This document shows positions 20,682 to 62,300 of a stretch of DNA of 64,000 nt, in pieces. The notes beneath the pieces are model-generated. The model saw only the letters and a program-made list of their open reading frames with translations, did not search any database and was not told the DNA's origin. The position numbers were made by a program, and so were the translations under genes. Position 1 is the first letter of the stretch. Each line of letters starts with the position of its first letter. Source of the stretch: Nitrosopumilus oxyclinae (GTDB taxonomy: Archaea > Thermoproteota > Nitrososphaeria > Nitrososphaerales > Nitrosopumilaceae); contig NZ_CP026994.1 in the NCBI RefSeq assembly GCF_013407165.1, forward strand, positions 1,082,187 to 1,146,186. Direction: 5' to 3'.

Positions 20682-20780
20682 GGACCGGTCGTCTAGTTTG
20701 GTTTGGATGACGCACTCACACTGCGTAAGGAAATTACTTTCCCGCAAAGGTCGTGGGTTCAAATCCCATTCGGTCCACCA
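20682..20780 (+). tRNA. tRNA-Val (anticodon CAC) with a variable-loop intron and encoded CCA
   Basis: The acceptor stem is GGACCGG (20682-20688) pairing with TCGGTCC (20770-20776), the D-arm is 20691-20708, the anticodon stem is ACGCA/TGCGT (20710-20714, 20722-20726) with loop CTCACAC and anticodon CAC at 20717-20719, and the T-arm is GTGGG-TTCAAAT-CCCAT (20753-20769). The discriminator A and CCA are encoded. Between the anticodon stem and T stem there are 26 nt instead of 5. Removing 20728-20748 leaves the standard variable loop AGGTC. It serves GTG codons. Confidence 0.94.
20728..20748 (+). other. 21-nt tRNA intron at non-canonical position 44/45
   Basis: A bulge-helix-bulge-like fold fits exactly. 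A 4-bp central helix forms from TGCG (20722-20725, exon) and CGCA (20743-20746, intron), flanked by 3-nt bulges TAA (20726-20728) and AAG (20747-20749). An intron hairpin GGAAA-TTAC-TTTCC caps it. Cutting each bulge after its second base excises 20728-20748. The outer helix on the exon side is weak, so this is a relaxed form of the motif. It is presumably cut by the archaeal tRNA splicing endonuclease. Confidence 0.85.
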
Positions 20781-21617: not shown

Positions 21618-21809
21618 GTGAATGTCTCTCAGACAAAATTAGAGGTTGAATCATCAAAAGAAATCCTACTGCAGACAATTTTAAAAAACAAGGAAAATCT
21701 AGATACAAATTTGATTGCAATTGCGATTAAAGATTATGTTAAAAATTACGATAAATATATTGATGAAAAAAAAAGACTCTTAGATATTATTTCAAGTTTT
21801 AAGAAATAA
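21618..21809 (+). CDS. Small helical hypothetical protein
   Basis: 63 aa from GTG 21618 (an ATG two bases earlier would read directly into a stop). Helical and charged (ESSKEILLQTILKNKENLDTN, KNYDKYIDEKKRLLDIISSFK). No family recognised. It is divergent from the zinc-ribbon membrane gene and convergent with the micro-gene cluster that ends at 21817 (7 bp between stops). Confidence 0.6.
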   Translation: MNVSQTKLEVESSKEILLQTILKNKENLDTNLIAIAIKDYVKNYDKYIDEKKRLLDIISSFKK

Positions 21810-21816
21810 GTGGGTT

Positions 21817-21969
21817 TTAAGATATTTGTGCCAATAGTTGTGTGTGACTAACATCATTTCTAAAACAGTCATCCAATCTGGATTGTAGTACTTTGAGATA
21901 GCAGTTAATCGAACAACATCCTTTGTGACCTACATCAAATGAATCTAAACAGATTTCACAGATTTTCAT
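21817..21969 (-). CDS. Micro-protein A3: Cys-rich, zinc-binding type (50 aa)
   Basis: Last gene of micro-cluster A. Cysteines at residues 4, 7, 18, 19, 23 and 35 (CEICLDSF, GHKGCCSINC) look like one small zinc site. The ATG overlaps the stop of A2 as ATGA, with GGAG 8 nt upstream, so it is translated from the same message as A1 and A2. No family recognised. It has the same role in cluster A (Cys-rich tail gene) as the 58-aa B7 protein in cluster B. Confidence 0.68.
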   Translation of the reverse strand: MKICEICLDSFDVGHKGCCSINCYLKVLQSRLDDCFRNDVSHTQLLAQIS

Positions 21970-22070
21970 AAGGATATCTCCTGAGTTTGAAGCTTTATCT
22001 TTGAAATGACAGTGTTAGTCATTTTGAGCAAAGCCTCCATTTGAGGATCTTGGACATATTGTAAAGTCAT
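21966..22070 (-). CDS. Micro-protein A2 with LLKMTN-V-KIK motif (34 aa)
   Basis: Second gene of cluster A. The sequence MTLQYVQDPQMEALLKMTN continues TVISKIKLQTQ. It aligns end to end with B2 (23757-23858), sharing MT-Q, LLKMTN, the V and KIK-Q-QE. It starts at the ATG in TAATG shared with the A1 stop, with GGAG exactly 8 nt before the start. Single amphipathic helix expected; the function is unknown. Confidence 0.68.
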   Translation of the reverse strand: MTLQYVQDPQMEALLKMTNTVISKIKLQTQEISL

Positions 22071-22204
22071 TAGGATGACTCCATTACGTGTAGTTTAATC
22101 TTCATTAGGACTTCATTTGTCATTTGTAAGAGATTTGCCATGTCAGCATCAAGAAAACATTCTGAACTGGAATCAAACATCACTGTTTTTTGTGTTGTAT
22201 TCAT
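22070..22204 (-). CDS. Micro-protein A1 with LLQMTN-V-MKIK motif (44 aa)
   Basis: First gene of cluster A. Paralogous to B1 (23855-23989), which is also 44 aa: both begin MN-T, have FDS, FLD, a Met-Thr-Asn motif (NLLQMTNEVLMKIK here) and a C-terminal ME-S. It follows the conserved promoter block (22225-22264) by 20 nt, so the leader is very short. The stop overlaps the A2 start (TAATG). Confidence 0.68.
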   Translation of the reverse strand: MNTTQKTVMFDSSSECFLDADMANLLQMTNEVLMKIKLHVMESS

Positions 22205-22224
22205 TTTTCTTCAATACACTATTA

Positions 22225-22288
22225 GTTACAATGAATATAACCAAGGATTTCGATTAGGCATGAATTAAGTATCGATGGCATCGAACCT
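22225..22288 (-). promoter_or_regulatory. Promoter and operator of micro-cluster A
   Basis: Reading leftward, a BRE/TATA element (TCGAAATCC, then GGTTATATTC) lies about 35 nt before the A1 start. The 40-bp block 22225-22264 matches 24011-24050 at 37 positions. Beyond it, a CGAACC half-site (22282-22287) sits 18 nt past the block end, exactly as in cluster B. An ATCGAT palindrome lies at 22271-22276. Shared control, plausibly by the TrmB-family protein of cluster B, is inferred. Confidence 0.72.
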
Positions 22289-22314
22289 CACTGGTTTGAG
22301 AGTATTTTGAAACT

Positions 22315-22425
22315 TTAACAAGGATATTCAGAGAGATCAGTAATCAGTTCTGAGGTCTCATCTAATATTTTGAGATGAAATAAGATAGATTTGCCATTAC
22401 TGGACTTTAAAATATTTTGAATCAT
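22315..22425 (-). CDS. Micro-protein B8 (36 aa)
   Basis: Last gene of cluster B. The ATG overlaps the stop of B7 as ATGA. The product is helical (ILFHLKILDETSELITDLSE) and ends in Cys. Unlike most junctions in the cluster there is no GGAG upstream, so this is the least certain member. It stops about 27 bp before the cluster A operator. Confidence 0.5.
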   Translation of the reverse strand: MIQNILKSSNGKSILFHLKILDETSELITDLSEYPC

Positions 22426-22598
22426 GCCGAGATTTTAGAGAGTGGAACTATAGATTTAATCATATCTTCTGAACCAAAGTGAAATTTAGTTTCATAGCAT
22501 TGCTCACATACAAGCCATTCATGGCAGTAAATCTGTCCAATTGTAGGTTTGTAAATAATTTTGTATTTTGGTTCGTGTCTATCTTCGCATTGATTCAT
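22422..22598 (-). CDS. Micro-protein B7: Cys/His zinc-binding type (58 aa)
   Basis: CEDRHEPKYK at the start (C4, H8) and YCHEWLVCEQC in the middle (C25, H26, C31, C34) suggest one zinc site. I chose the ATG at 22598 because GGAG precedes it by 7 nt; a TTG two codons earlier is possible. It overlaps the end of B6 in another frame by 20 nt. No named family recognised. Confidence 0.75.
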   Translation of the reverse strand: MNQCEDRHEPKYKIIYKPTIGQIYCHEWLVCEQCYETKFHFGSEDMIKSIVPLSKISA

Positions 22599-22668
22599 CG
22601 TCAATCTCCTTTGATAGTTGTTCTACTTGTCCAGTAAGTAGTAAGTAGAATTTACGGACCATATTCAA
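22579..22668 (-). CDS. Micro-protein B6, tandem copy of B5 (29 aa)
   Basis: Starts at TTG overlapping the B5 stop (TTGA), with GGAG 8 nt upstream. Residues 7-19 (FYLLLTGQVEQLS) are identical to the same positions in B5, and both begin Met-Asn from TTG-AAY. A hydrophobic patch is followed by a charged tail (KEIDDESMRR). It arose by duplication of a 71-bp unit and is read in a different frame from B5. Confidence 0.55.
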   Translation of the reverse strand: MNMVRKFYLLLTGQVEQLSKEIDDESMRR

Positions 22669-22722
22669 GTAGACATCTCCGTAGATAATTGCTCTACTTG
22701 TCCAGTAAGTAGTAAGTAGAAT
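22622..22722 (-). repeat. Two 30-bp direct repeats, 71 bp apart, inside B5 and B6
   Basis: Copies at 22622-22651 and 22693-22722 are identical. Each starts TCTACTTG and ends AAGTAGAAT on the + strand, so each can also fold back on itself (TCTACTT with AAGTAGA). They are the cores of the duplicated micro-genes B5 and B6. Two copies with a coding context do not make a CRISPR array. Confidence 0.9.
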
Positions 22723-22739
22723 TGTTGTAAAAAGTTCAA
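22665..22739 (-). CDS. Micro-protein B5 (24 aa)
   Basis: TTG start overlapping the B4 stop (TTGA), with GGAG 8 nt before it. The product is MNFLQQFYLLLTGQVEQL followed by STEMST. The identical core in B6, the repeated TTGA coupling and the ribosome-binding site argue that this very short frame is translated. The function is unknown. Confidence 0.52.
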   Translation of the reverse strand: MNFLQQFYLLLTGQVEQLSTEMST

Positions 22740-22912
22740 TAGTAAAACTCCTTTGTCTGATTTTTAATTTTCATAACTACATCACCGGTCATTTTTATCA
22801 AATGTTTAACTTCAAGATCATTGAGATGTTGACGACCATCATCTATAGACTGTTTAGCCATAAATGAAACCTCATTTTGAAGGCTCTCAAGTGCTAAAAC
22901 CTGACTAGTCAA
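22736..22912 (-). CDS. Micro-protein B4 with LIKMTG-V-MKIK motif (58 aa)
   Basis: Directly follows the TrmB-family gene, starting at TTG 22912 within its stop (TTGA); GGAG lies 10 nt upstream. A longer start at TTG 22936 would overlap the regulator by 28 nt. The C-terminal half carries HLIKMTGDVVMKIKNQ, the same motif as A1, A2, B1 and B2, here preceded by an extra helical region (LALESLQNEVSFMAKQSIDD). Confidence 0.72.
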   Translation of the reverse strand: MTSQVLALESLQNEVSFMAKQSIDDGRQHLNDLEVKHLIKMTGDVVMKIKNQTKEFYY

Positions 22913-23757
22913 TATAGCGCCTCTCCTTTTTCCCAAGACAGTTCAAACAATGAACTCATCATATCTACGAGAGTTTCAGAATCAGACCACCATGCAAAGA
23001 CCTGTCTTGTAGGATGTGTTGCATTGCGCATAAAGATGAGGACCTCTTTTTTGTCATTCACAATGAAACACTTGTTTTCAGAATTTGCAGGCATTGCTCT
23101 AATTTGTGCTGAATTCATCTCAGATAGGAATTCAGGGGTTTGGTTTAGAGGAGTGACGACCATTTTGAGATTAGTTGGTGCTTCTTCTACCCAATCAAAC
23201 ACATCTGCATGATACATTCTTAGTAAATCTGAAACACTGCCATAGATTCTGAAATCCTCATTGCTAGAATTTACCATTTCCTTGATTTTGTTCATGATAG
23301 GGCCTGTTCCATGTAGCAATTGCATTTTTTCAGATTTTGATTCATCTGTCTCTACTGCAAAGAATGGGATTTCTTTCCACATCTCTGAAAGAGATTCTTC
23401 CTTGTTTGCCAGGGTGTCAATTCTATCCTGTTCTTGTTTGACCAATGTAGAAACTGCTTCTTTCATATCCATTGCCGTGTATTTTGTTGGATGTGCCAGT
23501 TCTGCAACAACCAATCCCATACTCTGAAGGGAGTTGACCAGATGATAGGTCTCAGTTCGAGGCAATTGTAGTGCTTTTGCTATCTCAGAAGCAGTCTTCG
23601 ATCCATACTTTCCAAGATAAATGAACACCTTTGCCTGGCTTTTTGTGAGGCCAAAATTGATTAATTCATCTCTAATTTTCTCAAGAGTTAGTTTATGCTT
23701 GTACATTGCAGTGTCTGATTCATTATCAAACAGACTGATTTGATTTTGAGAATTCAT
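22909..23757 (-). CDS. TrmB-family transcriptional regulator
   Basis: 282 aa. Winged helix-turn-helix at about residues 30-95: LINFGLTKSQAKVFIYLGK, then KTASEIAKALQLPRTETYHLV and a wing with HPTKYTAMD. A coiled linker (LVKQEQDRIDTLANKEES) and a C-terminal ligand-type domain follow. TrmB proteins regulate by sensing small molecules; the ligand is unknown here. Its ATG overlaps the stop of micro-gene B2 (TAATG) with GGAG 8 nt upstream. Palindromic CGAACC-type sites before clusters A and B are candidate targets, implying autoregulation. Confidence 0.88.
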   Translation of the reverse strand: MNSQNQISLFDNESDTAMYKHKLTLEKIRDELINFGLTKSQAKVFIYLGKYGSKTASEIAKALQLPRTETYHLVNSLQSMGLVVAELAHPTKYTAMDMKEAVSTLVKQEQDRIDTLANKEESLSEMWKEIPFFAVETDESKSEKMQLLHGTGPIMNKIKEMVNSSNEDFRIYGSVSDLLRMYHADVFDWVEEAPTNLKMVVTPLNQTPEFLSEMNSAQIRAMPANSENKCFIVNDKKEVLIFMRNATHPTRQVFAWWSDSETLVDMMSSLFELSWEKGEALY

Positions 23758-23858
23758 TAGAAATTCTCCTGTGATTGTGTTTTAATTTTCATTATGACAA
23801 CGTTTGTCATTTTTAGGAGATTATCAATGGATGAATCTGCTAGGAATTGGTATGTCAT
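23757..23858 (-). CDS. Micro-protein B2 with LLKMTN-V-MKIK motif (33 aa)
   Basis: Second gene of cluster B, paralogue of A2 (MT-Q at the start, DNLLKMTNVVIMKIKTQSQE). It starts at an ATGA overlap with B1; GGAG lies 8 nt upstream. Its own stop overlaps the regulator's start (TAATG), so regulator synthesis should depend on translation of this frame. Confidence 0.68.
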   Translation of the reverse strand: MTYQFLADSSIDNLLKMTNVVIMKIKTQSQENF

Positions 23859-23989
23859 TGGGACATCTCCATAGATTGTGTTTTAATTTTCATCATGACA
23901 TCATTTGTCATATTGAAAAGTGACTCCAATCTAGAATCTAAAAAAGTGTGATTTGAGTCAAATGTTTGGTTTTGTGTTGTTTGGTTCAT
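23855..23989 (-). CDS. Micro-protein B1 with LFNMTN-V-MKIK motif (44 aa)
   Basis: First gene of cluster B, 21 nt below the conserved promoter block. Begins MNQTTQNQTFDS and carries SLFNMTNDVMMKIKTQS near the C terminus. It matches A1 in length and in the FDS, FLD and MTN-V-MKIK positions. Expected structure: disordered polar start plus one amphipathic helix. Confidence 0.68.
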   Translation of the reverse strand: MNQTTQNQTFDSNHTFLDSRLESLFNMTNDVMMKIKTQSMEMSQ

Positions 23990-24010: not shown

Positions 24011-24073
24011 GTTACAATGAATATAATCAAGGTTTTCGATTAGGCACGAAATATGGTTCGAACCATGCGAACC
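24011..24073 (-). promoter_or_regulatory. Promoter and palindromic operator of micro-cluster B
   Basis: The leftward BRE/TATA (TCGAAAACC, GATTATATTC) lies in the 40-bp block 24011-24050 shared with cluster A. Next to it is a perfect 14-bp palindrome ATGGTTCGAACCAT (24053-24066), followed by a further half-site GCGAACC (24067-24073). The site also lies 39 bp before the divergent exported-protein gene at 24112, so it could control both directions. A TrmB-type operator is inferred. Confidence 0.75.
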
Positions 24074-24111: not shown

Positions 24112-24900
24112 TTGCTTATAAAGGAAAATCCATCAATTACCTTATTGAAAAATAGCCAGATAGGCGTTATCACAATTGCCTCAATTGCAATATTATTTAC
24201 ATTATCTACTGTTTATTCCAATTTTGACATATGGGAAGAAGCTTATGCAGGTGTAACACTCGATCGTGACAATGTTGCAAAGACAATTCTAGTACGAATA
24301 AACCCAGATGGAACAAATTTTGAGAATGCATATGATTCATTCTCAAGAATTGGTTTTGTTGATGGAGAAGCAAATTTTTTACTAGAATCAGTTCCTAGTA
24401 AAGATAAAAAACCATTTTACGCTTTAATTCAAAAATCACTAGAATCAAAAAATACACTACTTAAAAACAAAGGAATGAACATCGCAATCGATATTTTCTC
24501 AGGTGATGGAGAGGTAATTGAGACATTAAAATATTCAAATTGTGATGTAACTGAATATTTTGTTCATGGTGTGGATTCAAAAGGAAAGATTTTCTTTACA
24601 GAGGATGACGGAACTGTCGAGATCAGAGAGGTAACAAAATTTGAATGTGTGTCATTTTCCTTAGAGGTGGAGATCTTACAAAGCGATCTTGACAGATTAG
24701 AGCAAACATTAGAGATTATAGAAACAATATCCAATCCATTTGAAATAACAACTGAGAAAGGATATTTCAGTAAACCTGCAACCAACGGTACAGAAGGAGA
24801 ATTATTCTACAACAGTATGACTAACAAACTACAAAAGTTTGTTGATGGTAAATGGATTGATATTTCCGGAGTAGGTGGACCACCAACACCTAGAAGGTAA
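24112..24900 (+). CDS. Exported hypothetical protein
   Basis: 262 aa from TTG 24112. An N-terminal membrane segment (IGVITIASIAILFTLSTVY, about 17-35) and AYAG suggest a signal peptide or anchor. The rest is a beta-rich outside domain with one pair of Cys (C145, C178 approx.) and a C-terminal segment FYNSMTNKLQKFVDGKW like that in phage-tail or surface proteins. No named family. It is divergent from micro-cluster B across its operator and is followed after 4 bp by another exported protein. Confidence 0.78.
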   Translation: MLIKENPSITLLKNSQIGVITIASIAILFTLSTVYSNFDIWEEAYAGVTLDRDNVAKTILVRINPDGTNFENAYDSFSRIGFVDGEANFLLESVPSKDKKPFYALIQKSLESKNTLLKNKGMNIAIDIFSGDGEVIETLKYSNCDVTEYFVHGVDSKGKIFFTEDDGTVEIREVTKFECVSFSLEVEILQSDLDRLEQTLEIIETISNPFEITTEKGYFSKPATNGTEGELFYNSMTNKLQKFVDGKWIDISGVGGPPTPRR

Positions 24901-24904
24901 TTCA

Positions 24905-25720
24905 ATGAAATTACAAATCATTGTGTTTTTGCTTATAATTATTGGGATTTCAGCAGGATTATCCCAACTAGGAAATGAGCAGATATCAATAATCGTTAAT
25001 TCAGAAGGAAAAGCCAAAATTTCTCAAACACTATTTCCCAAAACATTTGTTTCATCAATTGACGTACCAATAGTTTCAGAAAAAATTTCAAATCTTTTGG
25101 CAATTGATGAAAAAGATATTCTTTTAGGCACTACACAGGACCAAGATCTTTTGAAAATAGCCACATTAGGCGCCTCAGTAGTTGATCTCAAATATAATGC
25201 AGATATTCTAACCTATGAATCAGGAGTTTTTAGGCTAAAATACAGCAGTGAATTAGAATCCAGAGTCAGCCTACCCCAATTATCAAAACTAGTTTCATTA
25301 AATATAATTCCAATTGAAATTTCAGAAAAAGAATACGTCTTACCCCCAGGAGATATTTCTCTGAGTTATTCAATCAAGCCAGTCACATCAAAGGAGTTTT
25401 TTGTTAATGTTGATGGTTCAGAATATAAAATTGAAGCAATCACTGCGGCCAAGATAGAAGAATTTTCAGCAAATTCAGATGAAATTCAATTCATCATCAG
25501 AGACAAGGCAATTGTTTTGACAATTATTCCTACAACAGTTTTGGAAAATCCAAATGACGTATTACTGAATGGAGATAAAGTAGAGTTTAGTCAATTTCAT
25601 CAAAATTCAACCCACTCTTGGATCAGAATAGATCCTCATGAGAAAGGTTTGGTGCGAATTTTAGATTTCAAGGAAGAATCAGTAGAATGGTTTGACTGGT
25701 TATGGGGATGGTTCAAATGA
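24905..25720 (+). CDS. Exported hypothetical protein with N-terminal signal segment
   Basis: 271 aa from ATG 24905, chosen because it begins the hydrophobic stretch LQIIVFLLIIIGISAGLS. The body is beta-rich and acidic, with many short strands; the end is Trp-rich (WFDWLWGWFK). No recognised domain. It lies in a likely operon with the gene before (4-bp gap) and the repeat protein after (4-nt ATGA overlap with one possible start). Confidence 0.75.
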   Translation: MKLQIIVFLLIIIGISAGLSQLGNEQISIIVNSEGKAKISQTLFPKTFVSSIDVPIVSEKISNLLAIDEKDILLGTTQDQDLLKIATLGASVVDLKYNADILTYESGVFRLKYSSELESRVSLPQLSKLVSLNIIPIEISEKEYVLPPGDISLSYSIKPVTSKEFFVNVDGSEYKIEAITAAKIEEFSANSDEIQFIIRDKAIVLTIIPTTVLENPNDVLLNGDKVEFSQFHQNSTHSWIRIDPHEKGLVRILDFKEESVEWFDWLWGWFK

Positions 25721-28311
25721 ACATGAATTTAATTTTTCCATTTGTAATACGGTATTATGTTAATAACATAATGCGAACCGGACGACTGGATGGATCGAAC
25801 TACTCAGTTAAGTTCAGTTATGACGCAAGATCAGTGTTGAAAATAAGCCTCTTCGGCCTAATTGCACTTTTCGTATTAACAGTTAGTGTACCTTCAGCTT
25901 TTGCCCAATCAACTGAATCAGAAACTAGTTCACCAATCAAAATGGTGCTTGATTTGACAAGAAGTAATCTCTTAGACTCTTTTGATGACACTGGAGAGAT
26001 CCCTTCTTCAGCGCAGACATTTTATGATTTAGGACAAGAGGAATATCAAAAGGCAATTGATGCTCTGAACGCAGGTGATTTTGATGCAGCAGAAGAGCAT
26101 GCATTAATTGCCATGACATTGTTTGAGGATTCAGCATCAGTAATTGGAGAAATAATTGAATCAGAATCATTTGGAGAGAGTTCAGGTATAGACGAGTTTA
26201 GTTCTCAGATTATTAATCAGCCAACATCAGCCAATATTTTTGAGATTCAGGAAAAAATTACAGACACTGATGAGGAGGTAGAAAATTTAAGACAATTAAT
26301 TGAATCAAATAATTTAGATGTTAATTTAGAGGAATATGAGGAATCTATCAATTTAGCAAAAGAGGGATTAGCTAATGGTGATATTTCAGGTGCAAATGAA
26401 AAATTATCAATAGCAAATGAGATGAAAAATGAAGTTTATAATCAGATCAATGTAGCAGTAGAGGAAAATCAAGATGAACGAATTGAGCAATTTGTGACAA
26501 ATAGTATCAGCACAATAAATCAAATGTTAGCAAACGGAGAAGAACTAGGCTTAAGCCAAGATACACTAAATGAATTACAAGATACCCTAGATGTTCTGAA
26601 CACAGGTGAAATTGATGAGATTTTAGAAAAAACAGATGACAATAGCAATCTTGCAAAGGAATTCAAAAATGAAAACAAGGAAGCTGAGAAGGAGCTAAAA
26701 GAAGATAACAAGGAAGCTGAGAAGGAGCTAAAAGAAGATAACAAGGAAGCTGAGAAGGAGCTAAAAGAAGATAACAAGGAAGCTGAGAAGGAGCTAAAAG
26801 AAGATAACAAGGAAGCTGAGAAGGAGCTAAAAGAGGAAAACAAGGAAGCTGAGAAGGAGCTAAAAGAGACAGATCCAGAGGCAGCAAAGGAGCTAAAAGA
26901 GGAAAACAAGGAAGCTGAGAAATTATTGAAAGAGGAAAACAAGGAAGCTGAGAAGGAGCTAAAAGAGGAAAACAAGGAAGCTGAGAAATTATTGAAAGAG
27001 GAAAACAAGGAAGCTGAGAAGGAGCTAAAGATTTCTAAATTCGGAAAGGTGCCACCAGGTTTAGCTAAATTACTAGATAAAAATAATGATGAATCAGAAT
27101 CACCAAGTACTGATGTAGAAAATCCAAGTAATACGGATGTAGAAAATCCAACTGAATCTTTAGATTCTGTAGATATTGCATCAATTATTCCTGACGTGTA
27201 CGATGTTTCTGCAGATCTAGTGTATTCTCCAGATGATTATTTTGAAGATGCAGTAGATGAGTTGGAAGAAGATTCATTTGAAGAAAATTACGATAAAATG
27301 TACAAAGACTCAAAGGCTAAAGTCAAGAAGGACAAGGCAAAACAAGCAAAATTAGATAGAATTGCAGATGCTGCAGCTAATGGTGGACCACCAGGCCTTG
27401 CAAAGAAGGCCAATGATGGAATCACAGATGGTGATGCAATTAATATCTCAGCAACAGTAGGAGTACAATACACAGTTCAAGATTTCACTGCAATAAAGAA
27501 CGGTAAAGATGATTCAGATAAAATCAAAATAGATGTAGACATTCCAATCGGTTCAAGTTTAGGAAATATCAAGAATGAGGCACAACCATATTCATTTACA
27601 CCTGACGTAGTGGGGGTTTATACTATTACTGCTAAGGTAGGAGGATTATCAGATGTTATCAGAGTAATTACGGCAATAATAGCTGGTACTCCAACAGTAG
27701 AAAATCCAATTTCAGATGTAACTTTAACTTCTCCAAGACCAGATTCTGTAATTGATCTTAGAAATGTATTTGACGATGTAGAGGATGCCGATGATGAAAT
27801 GACTTATAGCATTTCATTAAATACATTCACCGGCACATTCACTTCAATTTCTATTGATGTTAATGATGTTTTGACTATTGATTATGATGACACTGCTGCG
27901 GGTGAAGGAACAGGAATCATCACAGTCAGAGCAACAGATACAGATTTGTTATTTGTAGAAGATTCATTTGATGTAACAGTTTCTGCTGCTGGAAATACTC
28001 AGCCAACAGTATCTCTTTCAATACCAGATGACAGTACAGCAAAGAATGTAGATTATGTAATTCTAGATATTGGTCAATATTTTGCTGATGCAGAGGATAC
28101 TGACATTCAATTAACATACACTGGAACAAGTGCAATCATTTCAGGGGATTCAGATACAATTGATGCAATCACCAGTGTTCCGGGCACTACATTAGTAACT
28201 GTAGATGTCAAAAATGGAAGAGATGGAACGGCAGATATTACAATTAGAGCAACAGATACAGGAGGATTGTGGATAGAAGACACATTCAGACTTGTAGTAG
28301 GTTCGGGATAA
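25717..28311 (+). CDS. Large exported protein with Lys/Glu 11-residue repeats and Ig-like C-terminal domains
   Basis: About 864 aa. A signal segment ISLFGLIALFVLTVS ends in AFAQ. Order after it: a helical domain (about 30-300) with repeat-like pieces (YQKAIDALNAGDFDAAEEHA), the charged repeat (26674-27030), a linker ending in KFGKVPPGLAKLL and GGPPGLAKKA, then two or three Ig/cadherin-like domains with RATDTxxxxVEDSF endings. Likely cell-surface. The start is uncertain: 25717 overlaps the previous stop (ATGA), but ATG 25771 just after a 17-bp palindrome would give a cleaner signal peptide. Confidence 0.8.
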   Translation: MNMNLIFPFVIRYYVNNIMRTGRLDGSNYSVKFSYDARSVLKISLFGLIALFVLTVSVPSAFAQSTESETSSPIKMVLDLTRSNLLDSFDDTGEIPSSAQTFYDLGQEEYQKAIDALNAGDFDAAEEHALIAMTLFEDSASVIGEIIESESFGESSGIDEFSSQIINQPTSANIFEIQEKITDTDEEVENLRQLIESNNLDVNLEEYEESINLAKEGLANGDISGANEKLSIANEMKNEVYNQINVAVEENQDERIEQFVTNSISTINQMLANGEELGLSQDTLNELQDTLDVLNTGEIDEILEKTDDNSNLAKEFKNENKEAEKELKEDNKEAEKELKEDNKEAEKELKEDNKEAEKELKEDNKEAEKELKEENKEAEKELKETDPEAAKELKEENKEAEKLLKEENKEAEKELKEENKEAEKLLKEENKEAEKELKISKFGKVPPGLAKLLDKNNDESESPSTDVENPSNTDVENPTESLDSVDIASIIPDVYDVSADLVYSPDDYFEDAVDELEEDSFEENYDKMYKDSKAKVKKDKAKQAKLDRIADAAANGGPPGLAKKANDGITDGDAINISATVGVQYTVQDFTAIKNGKDDSDKIKIDVDIPIGSSLGNIKNEAQPYSFTPDVVGVYTITAKVGGLSDVIRVITAIIAGTPTVENPISDVTLTSPRPDSVIDLRNVFDDVEDADDEMTYSISLNTFTGTFTSISIDVNDVLTIDYDDTAAGEGTGIITVRATDTDLLFVEDSFDVTVSAAGNTQPTVSLSIPDDSTAKNVDYVILDIGQYFADAEDTDIQLTYTGTSAIISGDSDTIDAITSVPGTTLVTVDVKNGRDGTADITIRATDTGGLWIEDTFRLVVGSG
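25746..25771. promoter_or_regulatory. Adjacent palindromes before the repeat-protein gene
   Basis: Two perfect inverted repeats lie side by side: AATACGGTATT (25746-25756) and TTATGTTAATAACATAA (25755-25771), the second ending on the A of ATG 25771. They could be an operator or a start-site hairpin for the large exported protein. The function is not known. Confidence 0.45.
26674..27030 (+). repeat. 33-bp tandem coding repeat (11-residue Lys/Glu unit)
   Basis: About eleven units of the form NKEAEKELKED/E, with variants NKEAEKLLKEE and TDPEAAKELKEE. The repeats predict a long, stiff, single charged helix projecting the surface domains. Units at the 5' end are nearly identical in DNA, indicating recent slippage or unequal exchange. 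Confidence 0.93.
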
Positions 28312-53622: not shown

Positions 53623-54261
53623 TTAGAGATCTTTGCTTAATTCAAGACGATTTACATCAGTCTTTTCTTCCTCAGTTGATTTCTCTGTGGTGTCATCAGT
53701 CTTTTCTTCCTCAGTTGATTTCTCTGTGGTGTCATCAGTCTTTTCTTCCTCAGTTGATTTCTCTGTGGTGTCGTCAGTTGATTTCTCTGTGGTGTCATCA
53801 GTTGATTTCTCTGTGGTGTCATCAGTTGATTTCTCTGTGGTGTCATCAGTTGATTTCTCTGTGGTGTCATCAGTTGATTTCTCTGTGGTGTCATCAGTCT
53901 TTTCTTCCTCAGTTGATTTCTCTGTGGTGTCATCAGTCTTTTCTTCCTCAGTTGATTTCTCTGTGGTGTCATCAGTCTTTTCTTCCTCAGTTGATTTCTC
54001 TGTGGTGTCGTCAGTCTTTTCTTCCTCAGTTGATTTCTCTGTGGTGTCGTCAGTTGATTTCTCTGTGGTGTCATCAGTTGATTTCTCTGTGGTGTCATCA
54101 GTTGATTTCTCTGTGGTGTCGTCAGTTGATTTCTCTGTGGTGTCGTCAGTTGATTTCTCTGTGGTGTCGTCAGTCTTTTCTTCCTCAGTTGATTTCTCTG
54201 TGGTGTCATCAGTCTTTTCTTCCTCAGTTGATTTCTCTGTGGTGTCGTCAGTCTTTTCTTT
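53623..54261 (-). CDS. Giant surface protein, C-terminal segment (after third frameshift)
   Basis: Continues the giant leftward gene once one extra T (54259-54261) is removed. Composed of TDDTTEKS units mixed with TEEEK spacers, ending with the non-repeat tail TDVNRLELSKDL. No C-terminal membrane segment or sorting signal is visible, so attachment must come from elsewhere or the product is released. The open frame extends upstream only as out-of-frame repeat (Pro/Gln/Arg-rich), which is not expected to be the real product. Confidence 0.6.
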   Translation of the reverse strand, partial: KEKTDDTTEKSTEEEKTDDTTEKSTEEEKTDDTTEKSTDDTTEKSTDDTTEKSTDDTTEKSTDDTTEKSTDDTTEKSTEEEKTDDTTEKSTEEEKTDDTTEKSTEEEKTDDTTEKSTEEEKTDDTTEKSTDDTTEKSTDDTTEKSTDDTTEKSTDDTTEKSTDDTTEKSTEEEKTDDTTEKSTEEEKTDDTTEKSTEEEKTDVNRLELSKDL

Positions 54262-54390
54262 CCTCAGTTGATTTCTCTGTGGTGTCGTCAGTCTTTTCTT
54301 CCTCAGTTGATTTCTCTGTGGTGTCGTCAGTTGATTTCTCTGTGGTGTCGTCAGTTGATTTCTCTGTGGTGTCATCAGTCTTTTCTTCTA
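53660..54390 (-). repeat. 24-bp/39-bp tandem coding repeat (TDDTTEKS)
   Basis: Units of 24 bp encode TDDTTEKS; longer 39-bp units add TEEEK. There are more than 20 copies in mixed order with few base changes, chiefly a third-position swap in the Asp codon (GTC/ATC on the + strand). All possible frames stay open across most of it. A copy near 54260 carries the extra base that breaks the gene. Confidence 0.93.
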
Positions 54391-57300
54391 CGACATCAAT
54401 CATAGCGTCATTTACTACTTGAACGGTTCTGATTTGCTCCTCTGCTGGAAGTGCCAAGGAATCAGATACATTGTATGTTACTGTGTAGTTTCCAAGTATA
54501 GCAGTGTTTACTGCTGTAGAGTTTATCACAATAGAGCCGCTGATGTCTCCGTCCTCAAGGTCTGTTGCAGTGGCATTGAGTTCAGTGTAATCACCATCTA
54601 GTGTAATTATTTGTGGGTTTGTTCCATTTAGCACAATTACGGGTGCTGTGTTGACATCAATGATAACATCATTTTGAGATTTTAGATCTACATTTTCATC
54701 TTCAGTCTTTTCTTCTTCAGATGATTCTTCAGATGATTCTTCAGATGATTCTTCAGATGATTCTTCAGATGATTCTTCAGATGATTCTTCAGATGATTCT
54801 TCAGATGATTCTTCAGATGATTCTTCAGATGATTCTTCAGATGATTCTTCAGATGATTCTTCAGATGATTCTTCAGATGATTCTTCAGATGATTCTTCAG
54901 ATGATTCTTCTACAAGATCATCAATTAATTCTGATTTAATTGCTGCAGTGGTAAATTCAGATATCTGAGAATCTAGACTATCTAAAATATTTAAAACAGC
55001 GACAATTGTCCATGCTTTTTCATAACTGTGAATTGCCTTGTCATATTTACCGTCATCCTCATAATCTAGACCTTTCTCAAAGTTATCAACTGCCTTTTGG
55101 ATTAATTTTGTGAATTTTCCATCAGTGTTTGCTGCTTGGGCTTGAGATATTGCATTTTCTGCAAATGTCTTATCAATTAGAGTGATCTGATCAATTATTT
55201 CTTGAATAAAGTTTAGGAATGATTCAGACTCTTTGTCTTGTTTTATAATATTCATTAATCTCTTTACAGCTTTTTCTTCTTCATGGATTGAATGCTTTCC
55301 TTGTTTTGGATCTAGTGTATTTTCATCTATCCAGTATTTCTGATCAAGACTTTTCTTGACGTCCTGTACTGCCCTATCAATACGCTTAACAGTTTGTTGT
55401 GATTCAGCTGAGGATTTTAGATTCTTTAATTCATCAATTATTGCTTGTTTTTGTTGCTGAACTGTTTGAACAGAAGATACATCATTAATTCCAACACTAA
55501 CTGTATCTGGATCAGATGAGGCACCTTCATCATCAGTTACAACTAGTGAGAAGACAAGTGTCTCACCTGGGGATTCTACTAAAGGTGCTGTGAATGTTGG
55601 GGAAGATGCAGTTACATCAGATAAGATAATTCCTGTGGGGGCAGTCCATGCATATGATATGATTGTTCCATCAGAGTCAGATGATCCCGTTGAAAGTAAT
55701 GTGACAATTACACCTTCATCAGCTGGATTTGGTGTTGCGCTAGCCTTTGCTGTTGGAGGATTATTGGCACTTTCTTCAATTGTTATGTTTTTAGTTGATT
55801 CATTGTTGCTTGGGTTTGGATCACTCTCATCTGCTGAAACTGTTGCAGTGTTGGATATTACTCCAGACACTCCAGAATTAACTAGTGTGGTAATTGTGAT
55901 GGTTTCATCTGATCCTGCAGGTAGTGAACTAAAGTCACATGTTACAGCATTACCGGACAATGTACATTCTGGTGATGGTGAAACACTTTGTCCTGTAACT
56001 TGTGATGGTAAGACATCAGAGACGATGACATTGGTTGCAGCGTCTGGTCCATTGTTATCAATTTCTAGTGTATAGTTAATGATTGATTGTTCAGATGGAA
56101 TTTCGTATTCGATGTGTAGTAATGGAGCTTTGTTTGGATTAGTTTCATATGAGATAGCATCTCTGTCAGCACTTCCACTATCTTCTTCAACAATTATTGC
56201 AATAGAGTTTCCACTGTTCCAACCATTTCTGTCAACTACCTCTTGAATTAGTGCAGTAATGTCAGGAGTCTGTTGTGGTGCACCTGCAGTTCCTTCTCCA
56301 ATCCAGTCAGGAATTATCCAGCTGACAGAAGCTGAAGTTGTAGGTCTAGAAGAGATATTCTCATCCTGGTTGGTAAAGGTTTGTGGATTATCAGAATCTT
56401 GGGCAAATATCTTTACTTTGGCATATCCTGTATCCTCATCATCTTCGGTTGTAAATTGTACATATGCATTGGTGATTGTTGCACCATCTGGAATTTCAAT
56501 TCCATTGAATCTCATACCGACATATTCTTCTTCATTTAGATCAAGGTCGCTAGAGTTTAGTGATACATCTTCATCATCATCTTCTTCTGCATCATCAGTA
56601 CCAGTTGCTACTCGAACATCAATTACTCCAGTAGTACCACCAGATGTGATTAATTCTCCAGACTTTACTATGGATACGTCAGCGTCATTTCCTAATGAAA
56701 CTACGGTAATTGTAATTGTTTCAAAGTCATCTAGTGATGGTGTTCCATCATCAGTTACTCTTACTGTAACAGTAAATGTTCCAATAGTAGTTGGAGTCCA
56801 TGAGAATTCTCCAGTAAGTGAATCAATTGTTGCACCTGGTGGGGCGCCTGCATCAAGTGAGAATGTTAGTGATTGAGGGGGCACTTCTGCATCAGTTGCA
56901 GTTGCAGTAAATGTCAATGTGGTAGACTCATCCACTGATTGATCACCAATTGGTGAAAGAACTGGAGTAGTGTTTAGAGTCACTACTGTGATAGTTTGGT
57001 CTGCACTGACAGAGTTGCCTGTTGCATCAGTTGCAGTCCATGTTCTAGTGATTACTTCGATGATGTTTCCAGTTCCTGGAACTGATACATCGCTAAATGT
57101 TACTGTTGGTGCTGGAAGTGCATTATCAGTTGCAGTTGCAAAGCCAGTGTTGGCAGGAGTTGTGTCTGCTGGGAATTCTAATGTTACATCAGCTGGGACT
57201 GTAAGAACTGGGTCTGTGGTATCTTGTATAATGTAAGTTCTAGTAACTGGTGCTGCTGCATTTCCTTGAGCATCAACTGAGTTGTAAGTGATGACGTAGG

Positions 57301-59300
57301 TTCCTGGTGTGCTAGTGTCAACTGAACCAGTTGTGGTGACAGTTGAACCATCATCAGTAGTGACTCCATCTAATAGATCTGGTGATGGTGAGCCAGCTTC
57401 TAGTGTAATGGTATCAGGTGTAACTGTGATGGTTGGTCCTACAGTATCTTGTACTGTGATAGTTTGGTCTGCACTGACAGAGTTGCCTGTTGCATCAGTT
57501 GCAGTCCATGTTCTAGTGATTACTTCGATGATGTTTCCAGTTCCTGGAACTGATACATCGCTAAATGTTACTGTTGGTGCTGGAAGTGCATTATCAGTTG
57601 CAGTTGCAAAGCCAGTGTTGGCAGGAGTTGTGTCTGCTGGGAATTCTAATGTTACATCAGCTGGGACTGTAAGAACTGGGTCTGTGGTATCTTGTATAAT
57701 GTAAGTTCTAGTAACTGGTGCTGCTGCATTTCCTTGAGCATCAACTGAGTTGTAAGTGATGACGTAGGTTCCTGGTGTGCTAGTGTCAACTGAACCAGTT
57801 GTGGTGACAGTTGAACCATCATCAGTAGTGACTCCATCTAATAGATCTGGTGATGGTGAGCCAGCTTCTAGTGTAATGGTATCAGGTGTAACTGTGATGG
57901 TTGGTCCTACAGTATCTTGTACTGTGATAGTTTGGTCTGCACTGACAGAGTTGCCTGTTGCATCAGTTGCAGTCCATGTTCTAGTGATTACTTCGATGAT
58001 GTTTCCAGTTCCTGGAACTGATACATCGCTAAATGTTACTGTTGGTGCTGGAAGTGCATTATCAGTTGCAGTTGCAAAGCCAGTGTTGGCAGGAGTTGTG
58101 TCTGCTGGGAATTCTAATGTTACATCAGCTGGGACTGTAAGAACTGGGTCTGTGGTATCTTGTATAATGTAAGTTCTAGTAACTGGTGCTGCTGCATTTC
58201 CTTGAGCATCAACTGAGTTGTAAGTGATGACGTAGGTTCCTGGTGTGCTAGTGTCAACTGAACCAGTTGTGGTGACAGTTGAACCATCATCAGTAGTGAC
58301 TCCATCTAATAGATCTGGTGATGGTGAGCCAGCTTCTAGTGTAATGGTATCAGGTGTAACTGTGATGGTTGGTCCTACAGTATCTTGTACTGTGATAGTT
58401 TGGTCTGCACTGACAGAGTTGCCTGTTGCATCAGTTGCAGTCCATGTTCTAGTGATTACTTCGATGATGTTTCCAGTTCCTGGAACTGATACATCGCTAA
58501 ATGTTACTGTTGGTGCTGGAAGTGCATTATCAGTTGCAGTTGCAAAGCCAGTGTTGGCAGGAGTTGTGTCTGCTGGGAATTCTAATGTTACATCAGCTGG
58601 GACTGTAAGAACTGGGTCTGTGGTATCTTGTATAATGTAAGTTCTAGTAACTGGTGCTGCTGCATTTCCTTGAGCATCAACTGAGTTGTAAGTGATGACG
58701 TAGGTTCCTGGTGTGCTAGTGTCAACTGAACCAGTTGTGGTGACAGTTGAACCATCATCAGTAGTGACTCCATCTAATAGATCTGGTGATGGTGAGCCAG
58801 CTTCTAGTGTAATGGTATCAGGTGTAACTGTGATGGTTGGTCCTACAGTATCTTGTACTGTGATAGTTTGGTCTGCACTGACAGAGTTGCCTGTTGCATC
58901 AGTTGCAGTCCATGTTCTAGTGATTACTTCGATGATGTTTCCAGTTCCTGGAACTGATACATCGCTAAATGTTACTGTTGGTGCTGGAAGTGCATTATCA
59001 GTTGCAGTTGCAAAGCCAGTGTTGGCAGGAGTTGTGTCTGCTGGGAATTCTAATGTTACATCAGCTGGGACTGTAAGAACTGGGTCTGTGGTATCTTGTA
59101 TAATGTAAGTTCTAGTAACTGGTGCTGCTGCATTTCCTTGAGCATCAACTGAGTTGTAAGTGATGACGTAGGTTCCTGGTGTGCTAGTGTCAACTGAACC
59201 AGTTGTGGTGACAGTTGAACCATCATCAGTAGTGACTCCATCTAATAGATCTGGTGATGGTGAGCCAGCTTCTAGTGTAATGGTATCAGGTGTAACTGTG
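54248..59300 (-). CDS. Giant surface protein, central segment (between second and third frameshifts)
   Basis: The frame is open from about 59300 to 54248; the first usable start inside it is a GTG at 56983. Order after five 468-bp units: a cadherin/He-PIG-like domain (PIGDQSVDESTTLTFTATA, FSWTPTTIGTFTVTV), a CBM-like domain with an acidic loop (AEEDDDEDVSL; YVQFTTEDDEDTGYAKVKIFA), a DUF11 domain (YTLEIDNNGPDAATNVIVSD), a PKD-like domain (ISYAWTAPTGI), a helical domain (about 54915-55490), the SSEE run, a DUF5011-like domain (GDYTELNATATDLEDGDISG) and the TDDTTEKS tail. Cell-surface adhesion or S-layer-linked filament is likely. Confidence 0.82.
54715..54912 (-). repeat. 12-bp tandem coding repeat (SSEE, about 16 units)
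   Basis: Perfect or nearly perfect copies of a 12-bp unit encoding Ser-Ser-Glu-Glu sit between the helical domain and the final Ig-like domain. Expected to be a disordered, highly acidic linker, possibly metal-binding or a phosphorylation target (inference). Copy number should vary between strains by slippage. Confidence 0.95.
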
Positions 59301-62300
59301 AATGGTTGGTCCTACAGTATCTTGTACTGTGATAGTTTGGTCTGCACTGACAGAGTTGCCTGTTGCATCAGTTGCAGTCCATGTTCTAGTGATTACTTCG
59401 ATGATGTTTCCAGTTCCTGGAACTGATACATCGCTAAATGTTACTGTTGGTGCTGGAAGTGCATTATCAGTTGCAGTTGCAAAGCCAGTGTTGGCAGGAG
59501 TTGTGTCTGCTGGGAATTCTAATGTTACATCAGCTGGGACTGTAAGAACTGGGTCTGTGGTATCTTGTATAATGTAAGTTCTAGTAACTGGTGCTGCTGC
59601 ATTTCCTTGAGCATCAACTGAGTTGTAAGTGATGACGTAGGTTCCTGGTGTGCTAGTGTCAACTGAACCAGTTGTGGTGACAGTTGAACCATCATCAGTA
59701 GTGACTCCATCTAATAGATCTGGTGATGGTGAGCCAGCTTCTAGTGTAATGGTATCAGGTGTAACTGTGATGGTTGGTCCTACAGTATCTTGTACTGTGA
59801 TAGTTTTGGTCTGCACTGACAGAGTTGCCTGTTGCATCAGTTGCAGTCCATGTTCTAGTGATTACTTCGATGATGTTTCCAGTTCCTGGAACTGATACAT
59901 CGCTAAATGTTACTGTTGGTGCTGGAAGTGCATTATCAGTTGCAGTTGCAAAGCCAGTGTTGGCAGGAGTTGTGTCTGCTGGGAATTCTAATGTTACATC
60001 AGCTGGGACTGTAAGAACTGGGTCTGTGGTATCTTGTATAATGTAAGTTCTAGTAACTGGTGCTGCTGCATTTCCTTGAGCATCAACTGAGTTGTAAGTG
60101 ATGACGTAGGTTCCTGGTGTGCTAGTGTCAACTGAACCAGTTGTGGTGACAGTTGAACCATCATCAGTAGTGACTCCATCTAATAGATCTGGTGATGGTG
60201 AGCCAGCTTCTAGTGTAATGGTATCAGGTGTAACTGTGATGGTTGGTCCTACAGTATCTTGTACTGTGATAGTTTGGTCTGCACTGACAGAGTTGCCTGT
60301 TGCATCAGTTGCAGTCCATGTTCTAGTGATTACTTCGATGATGTTTCCAGTTCCTGGAACTGATACATCGCTAAATGTTACTGTTGGTGCTGGAAGTGCA
60401 TTATCAGTTGCAGTTGCAAAGCCAGTGTTGGCAGGAGTTGTGTCTGCTGGGAATTCTAATGTTACATCAGCTGGGACTGTAAGAACTGGGTCTGTGGTAT
60501 CTTGTATAATGTAAGTTCTAGTAACTGGTGCTGCTGCATTTCCTTGAGCATCAACTGAGTTGTAAGTGATGACGTAGGTTCCTGGTGTGCTAGTGTCAAC
60601 TGAACCAGTTGTGGTGACAGTTGAACCATCATCAGTAGTGACTCCATCTAATAGATCTGGTGATGGTGAGCCAGCTTCTAGTGTAATGGTATCAGGTGTA
60701 ACTGTGATGGTTGGTCCTACAGTATCTTGTACTGTGATAGTTTGGTCTGCACTGACAGAGTTGCCTGTTGCATCAGTTGCAGTCCATGTTCTAGTGATTA
60801 CTTCGATGATGTTTCCAGTTCCTGGAACTGATACATCGCTAAATGTTACTGTTGGTGCTGGAAGTGCATTATCAGTTGCAGTTGCAAAGCCAGTGTTGGC
60901 AGGAGTTGTGTCTGCTGGGAATTCTAATGTTACATCAGCTGGGACTGTAAGAACTGGGTCTGTGGTATCTTGTATAATGTAAGTTCTAGTAACTGGTGCT
61001 GCTGCATTTCCTTGAGCATCAACTGAGTTGTAAGTGATGACGTAGGTTCCTGGTGTGCTAGTGTCAACTGAACCAGTTGTGGTGACAGTTGAACCATCAT
61101 CAGTAGTGACTCCATCTAATAGATCTGGTGATGGTGAGCCAGCTTCTAGTGTAATGGTATCAGGTGTAACTGTGATGGTTGGTCCTACAGTATCTTGTAC
61201 TGTGATAGTTTGGTCTGCACTGACAGAGTTGCCTGTTGCATCAGTTGCAGTCCATGTTCTAGTGATTACTTCGATGATGTTTCCAGTTCCTGGAACTGAT
61301 ACATCGCTAAATGTTACTGTTGGTGCTGGAAGTGCATTATCAGTTGCAGTTGCAAAGCCAGTGTTGGCAGGAGTTGTGTCTGCTGGGAATTCTAATGTTA
61401 CATCAGCTGGGACTGTAAGAACTGGGTCTGTGGTATCTTGTATAATGTAAGTTCTAGTAACTGGTGCTGCTGCATTTCCTTGAGCATCAACTGAGTTGTA
61501 AGTGATGACGTAGGTTCCTGGTGTGCTAGTGTCAACTGAACCAGTTGTGGTGACAGTTGAACCATCATCAGTAGTGACTCCATCTAATAGATCTGGTGAT
61601 GGTGAGCCAGCTTCTAGTGTAATGGTATCAGGTGTAACTGTGATGGTTGGTCCTACAGTATCTTGTACTGTGATAGTTTGGTCTGCACTGACAGAGTTGC
61701 CTGTTGCATCAGTTGCAGTCCATGTTCTAGTGATTACTTCGATGATGTTTCCAGTTCCTGGAACTGATACATCGCTAAATGTTACTGTTGGTGCTGGAAG
61801 TGCATTATCAGTTGCAGTTGCAAAGCCAGTGTTGGCAGGAGTTGTGTCTGCTGGGAATTCTAATGTTACATCAGCTGGGACTGTAAGAACTGGGTCTGTG
61901 GTATCTTGTATAATGTAAGTTCTAGTAACTGGTGCTGCTGCATTTCCTTGAGCATCAACTGAGTTGTAAGTGATGACGTAGGTTCCTGGTGTGCTAGTGT
62001 CAACTGAACCAGTTGTGGTGACAGTTGAACCATCATCAGTAGTGACTCCATCTAATAGATCTGGTGATGGTGAGCCAGCTTCTAGTGTAATGGTATCAGG
62101 TGTAACTGTGATGGTTGGTCCTACAGTATCTTGTACTGTGATAGTTTGGTCTGCACTGACAGAGTTGCCTGTTGCATCAGTTGCAGTCCATGTTCTAGTG
62201 ATTACTTCGATGATGTTTCCAGTTCCTGGAACTGATACATCGCTAAATGTTACTGTTGGTGCTGGAAGTGCATTATCAGTTGCAGTTGCAAAGCCAGTGT

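Follow-up and report, generated by a model that had tools for sequence, protein, structure and literature searches.

Among the described systems closest to the locus reported here are the plant microProteins, such as LITTLE ZIPPER, which consist of a single helix, a segment that they have in common with longer multi-domain proteins. In archaea, Haloferax volcanii encodes C(P)XCG zinc finger micro-proteins, which, like two proteins of our locus, are Cys-rich and shorter than 70 amino acids (aa) (PMC10716476, PMC6562870, PMC11241148). The TrmB family of regulators (TrmB, TrmBL1, TrmBL2, and Tgr) is the third point of reference: in a review of it (PMC4158304), a binding site upstream of the TFB-recognition element (BRE) and TATA box goes with activation and a downstream site with repression, several members are listed without an effector domain of the PF11495 type, and a single, unspecified TrmB is given for Nitrosopumilus maritimus. 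Here, we analyzed a stretch of 64,000 nucleotides (nt) of the Nitrosopumilus oxyclinae genome (“the window”; all coordinates below are positions in it), in which a TrmB-type regulator sits among two operons of overlapping micro-genes. Relatives of Nitrosopumilus rank among the most numerous archaea in the ocean. We favor, with a probability of roughly 45%, the reading that ten micro-genes and trmB form a self-contained cassette of two paralogous operons, whose micro-proteins would assemble together, probably with TrmB, as a small complex that would switch a neighboring operon of predicted surface proteins.

A conserved chain of overlapping micro-genes

Eleven minus-strand frames are present between 21817 and 23989, namely ten micro-genes of 24–58 codons and trmB. 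Five of the products carry what we call the MTN helix, the shared motif L-x-x-M-T-[NG]-x-V-x-x-K-I-K. Two genes bear double labels (B7 = C1 and A3 = C2). In the order of transcription, the genes are:

B1, 23855..23989, minus strand: MTN-helix micro-protein of 44 aa, first gene of operon B
B2, 23757..23858, minus strand: MTN-helix micro-protein of 33 aa, sharing 4 nt with B1 and 1 nt with trmB
trmB, 22909..23757, minus strand: TrmB-type regulator of 282 aa
B4, 22736..22912, minus strand: MTN micro-protein of 58 aa with an additional N-terminal helix; its TTG start overlaps the trmB stop (TTGA)
B5, 22665..22739, minus strand: LTG-type micro-protein of 24 aa, FYLLLTGQVEQLS
B6, 22579..22668, minus strand: LTG-type micro-protein of 29 aa, tandem relative of B5 (49-nt repeat, 92% identical)
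B7 = C1, 22422..22598, minus strand: Cys/His micro-protein of 58 aa, with a 20-nt overlap with B6
x36, 22315..22425, minus strand: micro-protein of 36 aa (SILFHLKILDE...DLSEYPC)
A1, 22070..22204, minus strand: MTN-helix micro-protein of 44 aa, first gene of operon A and paralog of B1
A2, 21966..22070, minus strand: MTN-helix micro-protein of 34 aa, paralog of B2
A3 = C2, 21817..21969, minus strand: Cys-rich micro-protein of 50 aa

Neighboring genes overlap at all nine proposed junctions, by 4, 1, or 20 nt (eight junctions were scored; the ninth, the ATGA of B7/x36, was read from the coordinates). The eleven leftward frames and nine junctions proposed by a first-pass annotation of this DNA were thus all recovered, with coordinates checked. 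Its observation that GGAG precedes the starts was borne out as well: it had counted seven, and a GGAG/GAGG-type site stands before the start at all eight scored junctions. The five products that it had listed as sharing the MTN motif (A1, A2, B1, B2, and B4) all match it exactly. Equally upheld was the proposal that the two clusters are paralogous, each with a Cys-rich gene; the likeness extends to the promoters, where the 69 nt preceding A1 and B1 are 78% identical. A 34-nt core pattern taken from this region, allowing up to three mismatches, occurs at just two sites in the 1,585,110-base genome, before A1 and before B1.

Conservation in related genomes was then assessed. Relatives of TrmB (E 1e-10) were found in 106 of the 151 genomes of the family, and the names of the close relatives were mostly Nitrosopumilus and Nitrosarchaeum (22 loci). 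The same chain recurs in three genomes (G074, G134, and G199, the last with a single LTG gene), and it is shortened or permuted in three others (G163, G219, and G104). The geometry of the overlaps, mostly -4 or -1 nt, is wholly or largely kept in six genomes (our own and five others), and the overlap between the LTG gene and C1 is exactly -20 nt in five genomes; at one locus (L136), two junctions deviate. The TTGA overlap of trmB and B4 was found at eight of the nine loci scored, including two whose TrmB is 71–75% identical (L037 and L041). At the ninth locus, again L136, an LTG gene follows trmB, likewise with a -4 overlap.

The short frames also evolve as coding sequences. The ratio of nonsynonymous to synonymous substitution rates (dN/dS), pooled over four genomes and with dS saturated in some pairs, was 0.41 for B1, 0.20 for B2, 0.06 for TrmB, 0.19 for B4, 0.13 for B6, 0.16 for C1, 0.26 for A1, and 0.11 for C2; B5 gave 0.09 over three genomes, and A2 0.06, again with saturated dS in some pairs. 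For these ten genes, TrmB included, the range of 0.06–0.41 is the pattern of coding rather than non-coding DNA. As a frame control, we compared the corresponding ratio of proportions (pN/pS) between the proposed frame and two shifted frames for eight micro-genes in four genomes, a set that left out B5 and TrmB; the values were 0.18–0.50 in frame versus 0.76–2.07 in the shifted frames. B1 was the weakest of the set (0.50 versus 0.76 and 1.14). The gene x36, which is covered by no profile, was handled separately: it is conserved in five genomes, its start codon position is not, and its pN/pS was 0.20 in frame versus 0.90 and 2.38 shifted (four rows of equal length). Nine micro-genes therefore pass the frame control, and the micro-frames are conserved genes under purifying selection, retained in related Nitrosopumilus genomes together with their overlaps.

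Some copies appear to be decaying. In G104 (L036/L164), trmB contains a stop, and the gene D262 (described below) is in pieces with stops; in G124 (L178), trmB, C1, and C2 are in pieces.

Micro-protein families and the TrmB regulator

Of 607 candidates, 234 matched a profile built from the MTN proteins (A4) at E 0.01. The family was detected in 53 of 250 genomes and in 6 of the 22 genera of the taxonomic family; in a wider survey of the class, 42 of 300 genomes had MTN, every one of them a member of that same family. Our genome holds seven MTN copies at E 0.01, five of them in the window. The remaining two lie far from TrmB, and the neighbors of both are conserved in five other genomes. One is a stand-alone gene of 30 aa (L083:5170-5262, at ~646.2 kb), adjoining a putatively BtuF-like gene. 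The other, of 64 aa and B4-like, lies downstream of a DUF6659 gene (PF20364 in a Pfam run on the genome) and overlaps an 84-aa gene, P0152 (L084:4764-5670, at ~703.3-704.2 kb). Similar pairs recur in several genomes.

In Pfam, NCBIfam, PHROGs, and PADLOC, nothing matched B4 above cut-off, and an MTN profile (A3) found no PDB sequence at E 10; the PDB comparison covered the MTN profile and left out C2 and the LTG proteins. AlphaFold2 modeled B4 as a helical hairpin (residues 2-24 and 32-57; predicted local distance difference test score, pLDDT, 85), for which Foldseek returned no PDB chain at E 0.001, two-helix models matching many chains weakly. Database titles of MTN and C1 proteins are mostly absent or read “hypothetical protein”. 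The MTN helix thus defines a micro-protein family without a match in five libraries.

The C1 profile recovered 206 relatives at E 0.01 among 375 candidates. In their alignments, C4, H8, W28, C31, and C34 are invariant, and the spacing of the Cys and His residues suggests a zinc site. Neither C1, whose relatives were also checked, nor C2 reached the cut-off of any entry in Pfam, NCBIfam, PHROGs, or PADLOC. Helix and Cys-rich domains also occur fused, in both orders. P0152, in our own genome, continues from a C1 domain into a tail of the HLxIMTxTxTKKLK pattern, P0209 carries MTN and then C1, and a single 154-codon frame (L192) encodes MTN, C1, and a tail; the MTN-like nature of the tail in the C1 fusions is backed by motif and position. 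Further proteins combine two helices: P0004 is B4 followed by a second MTN helix, and L043/L045 have two MTN helices, the second weakly scored (0.16 and 0.062). AlphaFold2 gave residues 11-50 of a C1 fusion as a small beta domain (block means 75-84). These natural fusions hint that the MTN helices and C1 work jointly, and they supply pairings that can be tested.

C1-type micro-genes also adjoin two tandem genes that, by eye, resemble helix-turn-helix (HTH) regulators (L181-L184 and L187), a possible third regulatory context.

The regulator belongs to the TrmB family by its HTH domain (PF01978, 56.5 bits; cut-off 25.6), and its nearest solved relative by sequence is TrmBL2 (5box, E 3.9e-6). The first-pass annotation called it a full TrmB-type regulator, which holds for the DNA-binding half; the classical C-terminal effector domain, PF11495, scored 18.1 bits, under its cut-off of 22.2. 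Since several family members are listed without this domain (PMC4158304), the low score does not exclude membership. Among the proteins of the cassette, none but TrmB has a recognized DNA-binding domain.

At three other loci (L162, L165, and L166), trmB is preceded by a different, TTTGTTCAAATGAACAAA-like palindrome, possibly a second type of TrmB operator (no control was run).

A candidate operator, the divergent operon, and a proposed mechanism

Upstream of B1, a perfect inverted repeat lies between the micro-operon and three genes on the opposite strand. The elements of this region, with their counterparts before A1, are:

operator B, 24055..24073, no strand: in the divergent promoter region, a perfect GGTTCG-N7-CGAACC inverted repeat of 19 bp
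operator A, 22269..22287, no strand: upstream of A1, a copy of GGTTCG-N7-CGAACC containing two mismatches
promoter element of operon B, 24011..24046, minus strand: conserved, TCGAAANCCTTGRTTATATT; the BRE/TATA label was given by eye
promoter element of operon A, 22225..22260, minus strand: conserved
TATA-like box of the divergent operon, 24115..24122, plus strand: CTTATAAA, with a TTATA core in ten aligned loci
D262, 24145..24900, plus strand: first gene of the divergent operon, predicted to be exported or membrane-anchored, with a hydrophobic N-terminus
D281, 24875..25720, plus strand: second gene, with an internal ATG at 24905, predicted to be exported
D869, 25702..28311, plus strand: third gene, a predicted surface protein with KEDNKEAEKEL repeats

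Operator B is the only perfect copy of the repeat in the genome. Among 32 chosen genomes, a perfect copy was found exactly once in each of eight (G000, G074, G134, G199, G163, G219, G194, and G124), always at the trmB locus; the remaining 24 lack a perfect copy, that of G104 containing one mismatch. Other one-mismatch sites were no commoner than in the control across the 32 genomes, and we rejected a wider operator regulon in our genome, where imperfect copies were likewise no commoner than in the control. In an alignment of ten loci, for which the TTATAT of the TCGAAANCCTTGRTTATATT element served to orient the rows, the repeat is flanked by this element towards B1 and by the box with the TTATA core on the other side. 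The strict operator was found in 10 of 19 trmB rows with MTN and in none of the 14 without (Fisher 0.0014; 33 of 38 rows, those with an identity of 59% or more; two rows without MTN end at most 4 nt from trmB). The repeat is a candidate site for TrmB.

The box CTTATAAA fits the divergent operon D262-D281-D869. We re-assigned the start of D262 from 24112 to a TTG at 24145, the position of an ATG in three relatives. None of the three proteins has a Pfam family above cut-off, and all three are predicted from their hydrophobic N-termini to be exported. The earlier view of a regulon made up of micro-genes did not take in this three-gene operon (24145-28311), which the candidate operator also faces. 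Across 25 trmB loci, the strict operator and D262 were both present in 10 and both absent in 15 (Fisher 3e-7; the loci are related and not independent). The 10 include a trmB fragment (L178) and a locus cut by a contig end (L135), the 15 include two loci with ~0.5 kb upstream (L042 and L173), and the comparison was made without L044, L047, L048, L049-L052, L161, L166, L169, and L177. Close homologs of D262 (E<1e-40) occur in 12 of 250 genomes, in 11 of them beside a trmB locus; the twelfth, G187, has D262-D281 with neither trmB nor MTN on the 6 kb read, 0.7 kb of it upstream.

The arrangement extends to other genera. In G003 (L046, another genus), the order is D869-D281-D262-operator-TrmB-MTN, so that the operator stands directly before trmB with D262 divergent. 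In G002 (L047, a third genus, with a TrmB 59% identical), a looser repeat, GGTTC-N9-GAACC, likewise stands directly before trmB with D262 divergent; the interval from trmB to D262 also holds a CTCGAAATCC element, and trmB is followed by two B4-like genes. On these grounds, we rejected the idea that the operator is merely inherited with the B1 gene. D869 diverges fastest within its operon, with 31-57% identity over the matched parts. D281, by comparison, is 74-80% identical at five of these loci and 59-69% at L046 and L178, and TrmB is 85-93% identical at most of the loci compared for D869.

Under the cassette reading, two paralogous operons of overlapping genes stand behind a palindromic operator that also faces the divergent surface operon. 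The overlaps would couple translation, so that TrmB and B4 would be made together. TrmB would bind GGTTCG-N7-CGAACC, and because, for either promoter, the repeat sits upstream of the TATA-like box, the bound dimer may activate both divergent promoters, that of the micro-operon and that of D262, with operon A responding through the second operator. The one-helix and hairpin MTN proteins would pair with one another and with the Cys proteins C1 and C2, which may bind zinc. The resulting complex could modulate TrmB or how TrmB engages the transcription machinery; that it touches TrmB is suggested by the conserved trmB/B4 overlap and by co-occurrence. In each of the eight genomes with a perfect operator, that operator stands nowhere but at the trmB locus, so that the circuit would have as its output the micro-proteins themselves and the surface operon, with TrmB controlling both its own operon and the divergent one.

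Further features were noted in the window. A conserved 63-aa gene (21618-21809, plus strand), convergent with operon A, is also found at trmB loci without micro-genes (L163 and L038) and, by eye, at an MTN+C1 site (L185). A tRNA-Val (CAC) is predicted at 20682-20780 on the plus strand (99 nt, possibly with an intron). Large predicted surface genes with repeats spaced 468 nt and with KSTEEEKTDD-type repeats occupy 53623-63612, some frames ending inside the repeats.

Competing explanations and relation to known systems

Several observations weigh against the cassette reading. Overlaps of the NTGA type are the commonest gene spacing in bacteria and archaea (PMC12548453), so that the unusual features here are the chaining of such small genes and the conservation of that chain, not any single overlap. 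The two-mismatch level of operator A is also reached by chance (7 sites versus 12 in the control). The strict operator is missing from nine of the 19 trmB rows with MTN; one of the nine, L047, would be discordant under the strict rule, as D262 is present there. The tail of the C1 fusions scored weakly against the profile (0.057 in L092 and 5.9 in L192), and its AlphaFold2 model stayed below pLDDT 50. Many sites with neither TrmB nor the operator (DUF6659 loci and MTN+C1 loci among them) also carry MTN and C1 genes, which means that TrmB is not needed for the MTN family and may not be the partner of these proteins; we thus rejected a tie of MTN to TrmB alone, and the earlier label “TrmB-linked”, apt in that TrmB sits among the micro-genes, is too narrow. 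Finally, a TrmB paralog (L035, in G092) is 85% identical, with one difference in 55 residues around the recognition helix, and has no micro-genes and different palindromes upstream (no control was run); in that genome, the operator is absent even with one mismatch allowed. Either TrmB is not the reader of the palindrome, or its reading depends on partners.

The former possibility, in which another factor or a Cys micro-protein reads the palindrome and TrmB has its target elsewhere, is one we consider unlikely, if deserving of attention. The near-identical DNA-binding stretch in palindrome-free G092 and the paralogs preceded by other palindromes speak for it; the perfect palindrome at the trmB locus in all eight genomes that have one, its position immediately before trmB in G003 and, loosely, in G002, and the lack of a recognized DNA-binding domain in any other cassette protein speak against it. 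Somewhat less probable in our judgment is that MTN and C1 are general docking or adaptor modules of archaeal gene regulation, the TrmB operon being one user among several. Such a role would accommodate the MTN genes and MTN+C1 pairs at DUF6659 loci, the MTN+C1 sites without TrmB, the MTN gene beside the presumed BtuF-like gene, the C1 genes beside tandem HTH-like genes (by eye), and the two MTN copies distant from TrmB in our genome, but the richest sets, with LTG, C2, and x36, are found at trmB loci, where the trmB/B4 overlap is so well kept. The second possibility, dependence on partners, leads to a more speculative version of the cassette reading, which we regard as doubtful: exchangeable one-helix, two-helix, and zinc micro-proteins, made in fixed ratio, could form a combinatorial code that changes the DNA read by TrmB. 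If true, the presence of particular micro-genes would explain how nearly the same TrmB DNA-binding domains stand behind different palindromes, and the code would turn a rapidly evolving surface protein of these marine archaea on or off.

That the micro-proteins are no regulators at all and serve as cytoplasmic subunits or chaperones that build or export the divergent surface proteins seems improbable. D262 does track the strict operator in all 25 loci compared, but eight MTN-bearing trmB loci of that comparison are without D262 (two of them with just 0.5 kb upstream), and the D262-D281 pair of G187 has no trmB or MTN on the stretch read. A toxin-antitoxin-like or selfish mobile cassette, as small overlapping genes at varied sites and in permuted orders might evoke, is very improbable, given that five micro-proteins scanned in both PADLOC and PHROGs had no match (mobility genes were not searched for) and that the stand-alone MTN copies have conserved neighbors. 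Chance frames or a non-coding leader deserve practically no weight. Frames this short are indeed common by chance (101 of at least 20 aa in 7 kb), but selection specific to the frame, conserved geometry, and the 234 MTN and 206 C1 homologs oppose this account, and the frame controls led us to reject chance frames.

Under the cassette reading, conserved proteins of 24-58 residues gain a probable partner in TrmB, along with candidates for an operator and for a target, the latter being the divergent surface operon. The role of micro-proteins in archaeal gene control could thereby be put to a direct test that needs no more than a handful of purified proteins and a single DNA of 19 bp. By sequence, the micro-proteins appear to lie outside every family tested. 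In agreement with the first-pass annotation, which knew of no described system with this layout, no description of the cassette was found in the titles and abstract openings of the literature on Nitrosopumilus/Thaumarchaeota TrmB, DUF6659, and small proteins, mostly without subscription journals.

Compared with the plant microProteins, the micro-proteins here outnumber the regulator and are encoded together with it, and their target is a candidate. With the TrmB family, the regulator shares the PF01978 HTH domain, and the palindrome lies upstream of a TATA-like box, as in the promoters activated by studied members (PMC4158304). Unlike classical TrmB, it has PF11495 below cut-off; its predicted site, GGTTCG-N7-CGAACC, differs from the TACT-N3-AGTA and TATCAC-N5-GTGATA given there for studied TrmB proteins (PMC4158304); and its neighbors are, in contrast to those of the studied family, micro-genes and predicted exported proteins. 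As for the C(P)XCG proteins of Haloferax, C1 has C-x3-H and CEQC-Y and C2 has CEIC-L, neither containing C-x-x-C-G, and two distant C2-like proteins (L041 and L099) have one CMHCG each. In further contrast to the C(P)XCG proteins, C1 and C2 are encoded in overlapping chains with helical micro-proteins and are elsewhere fused to such proteins.

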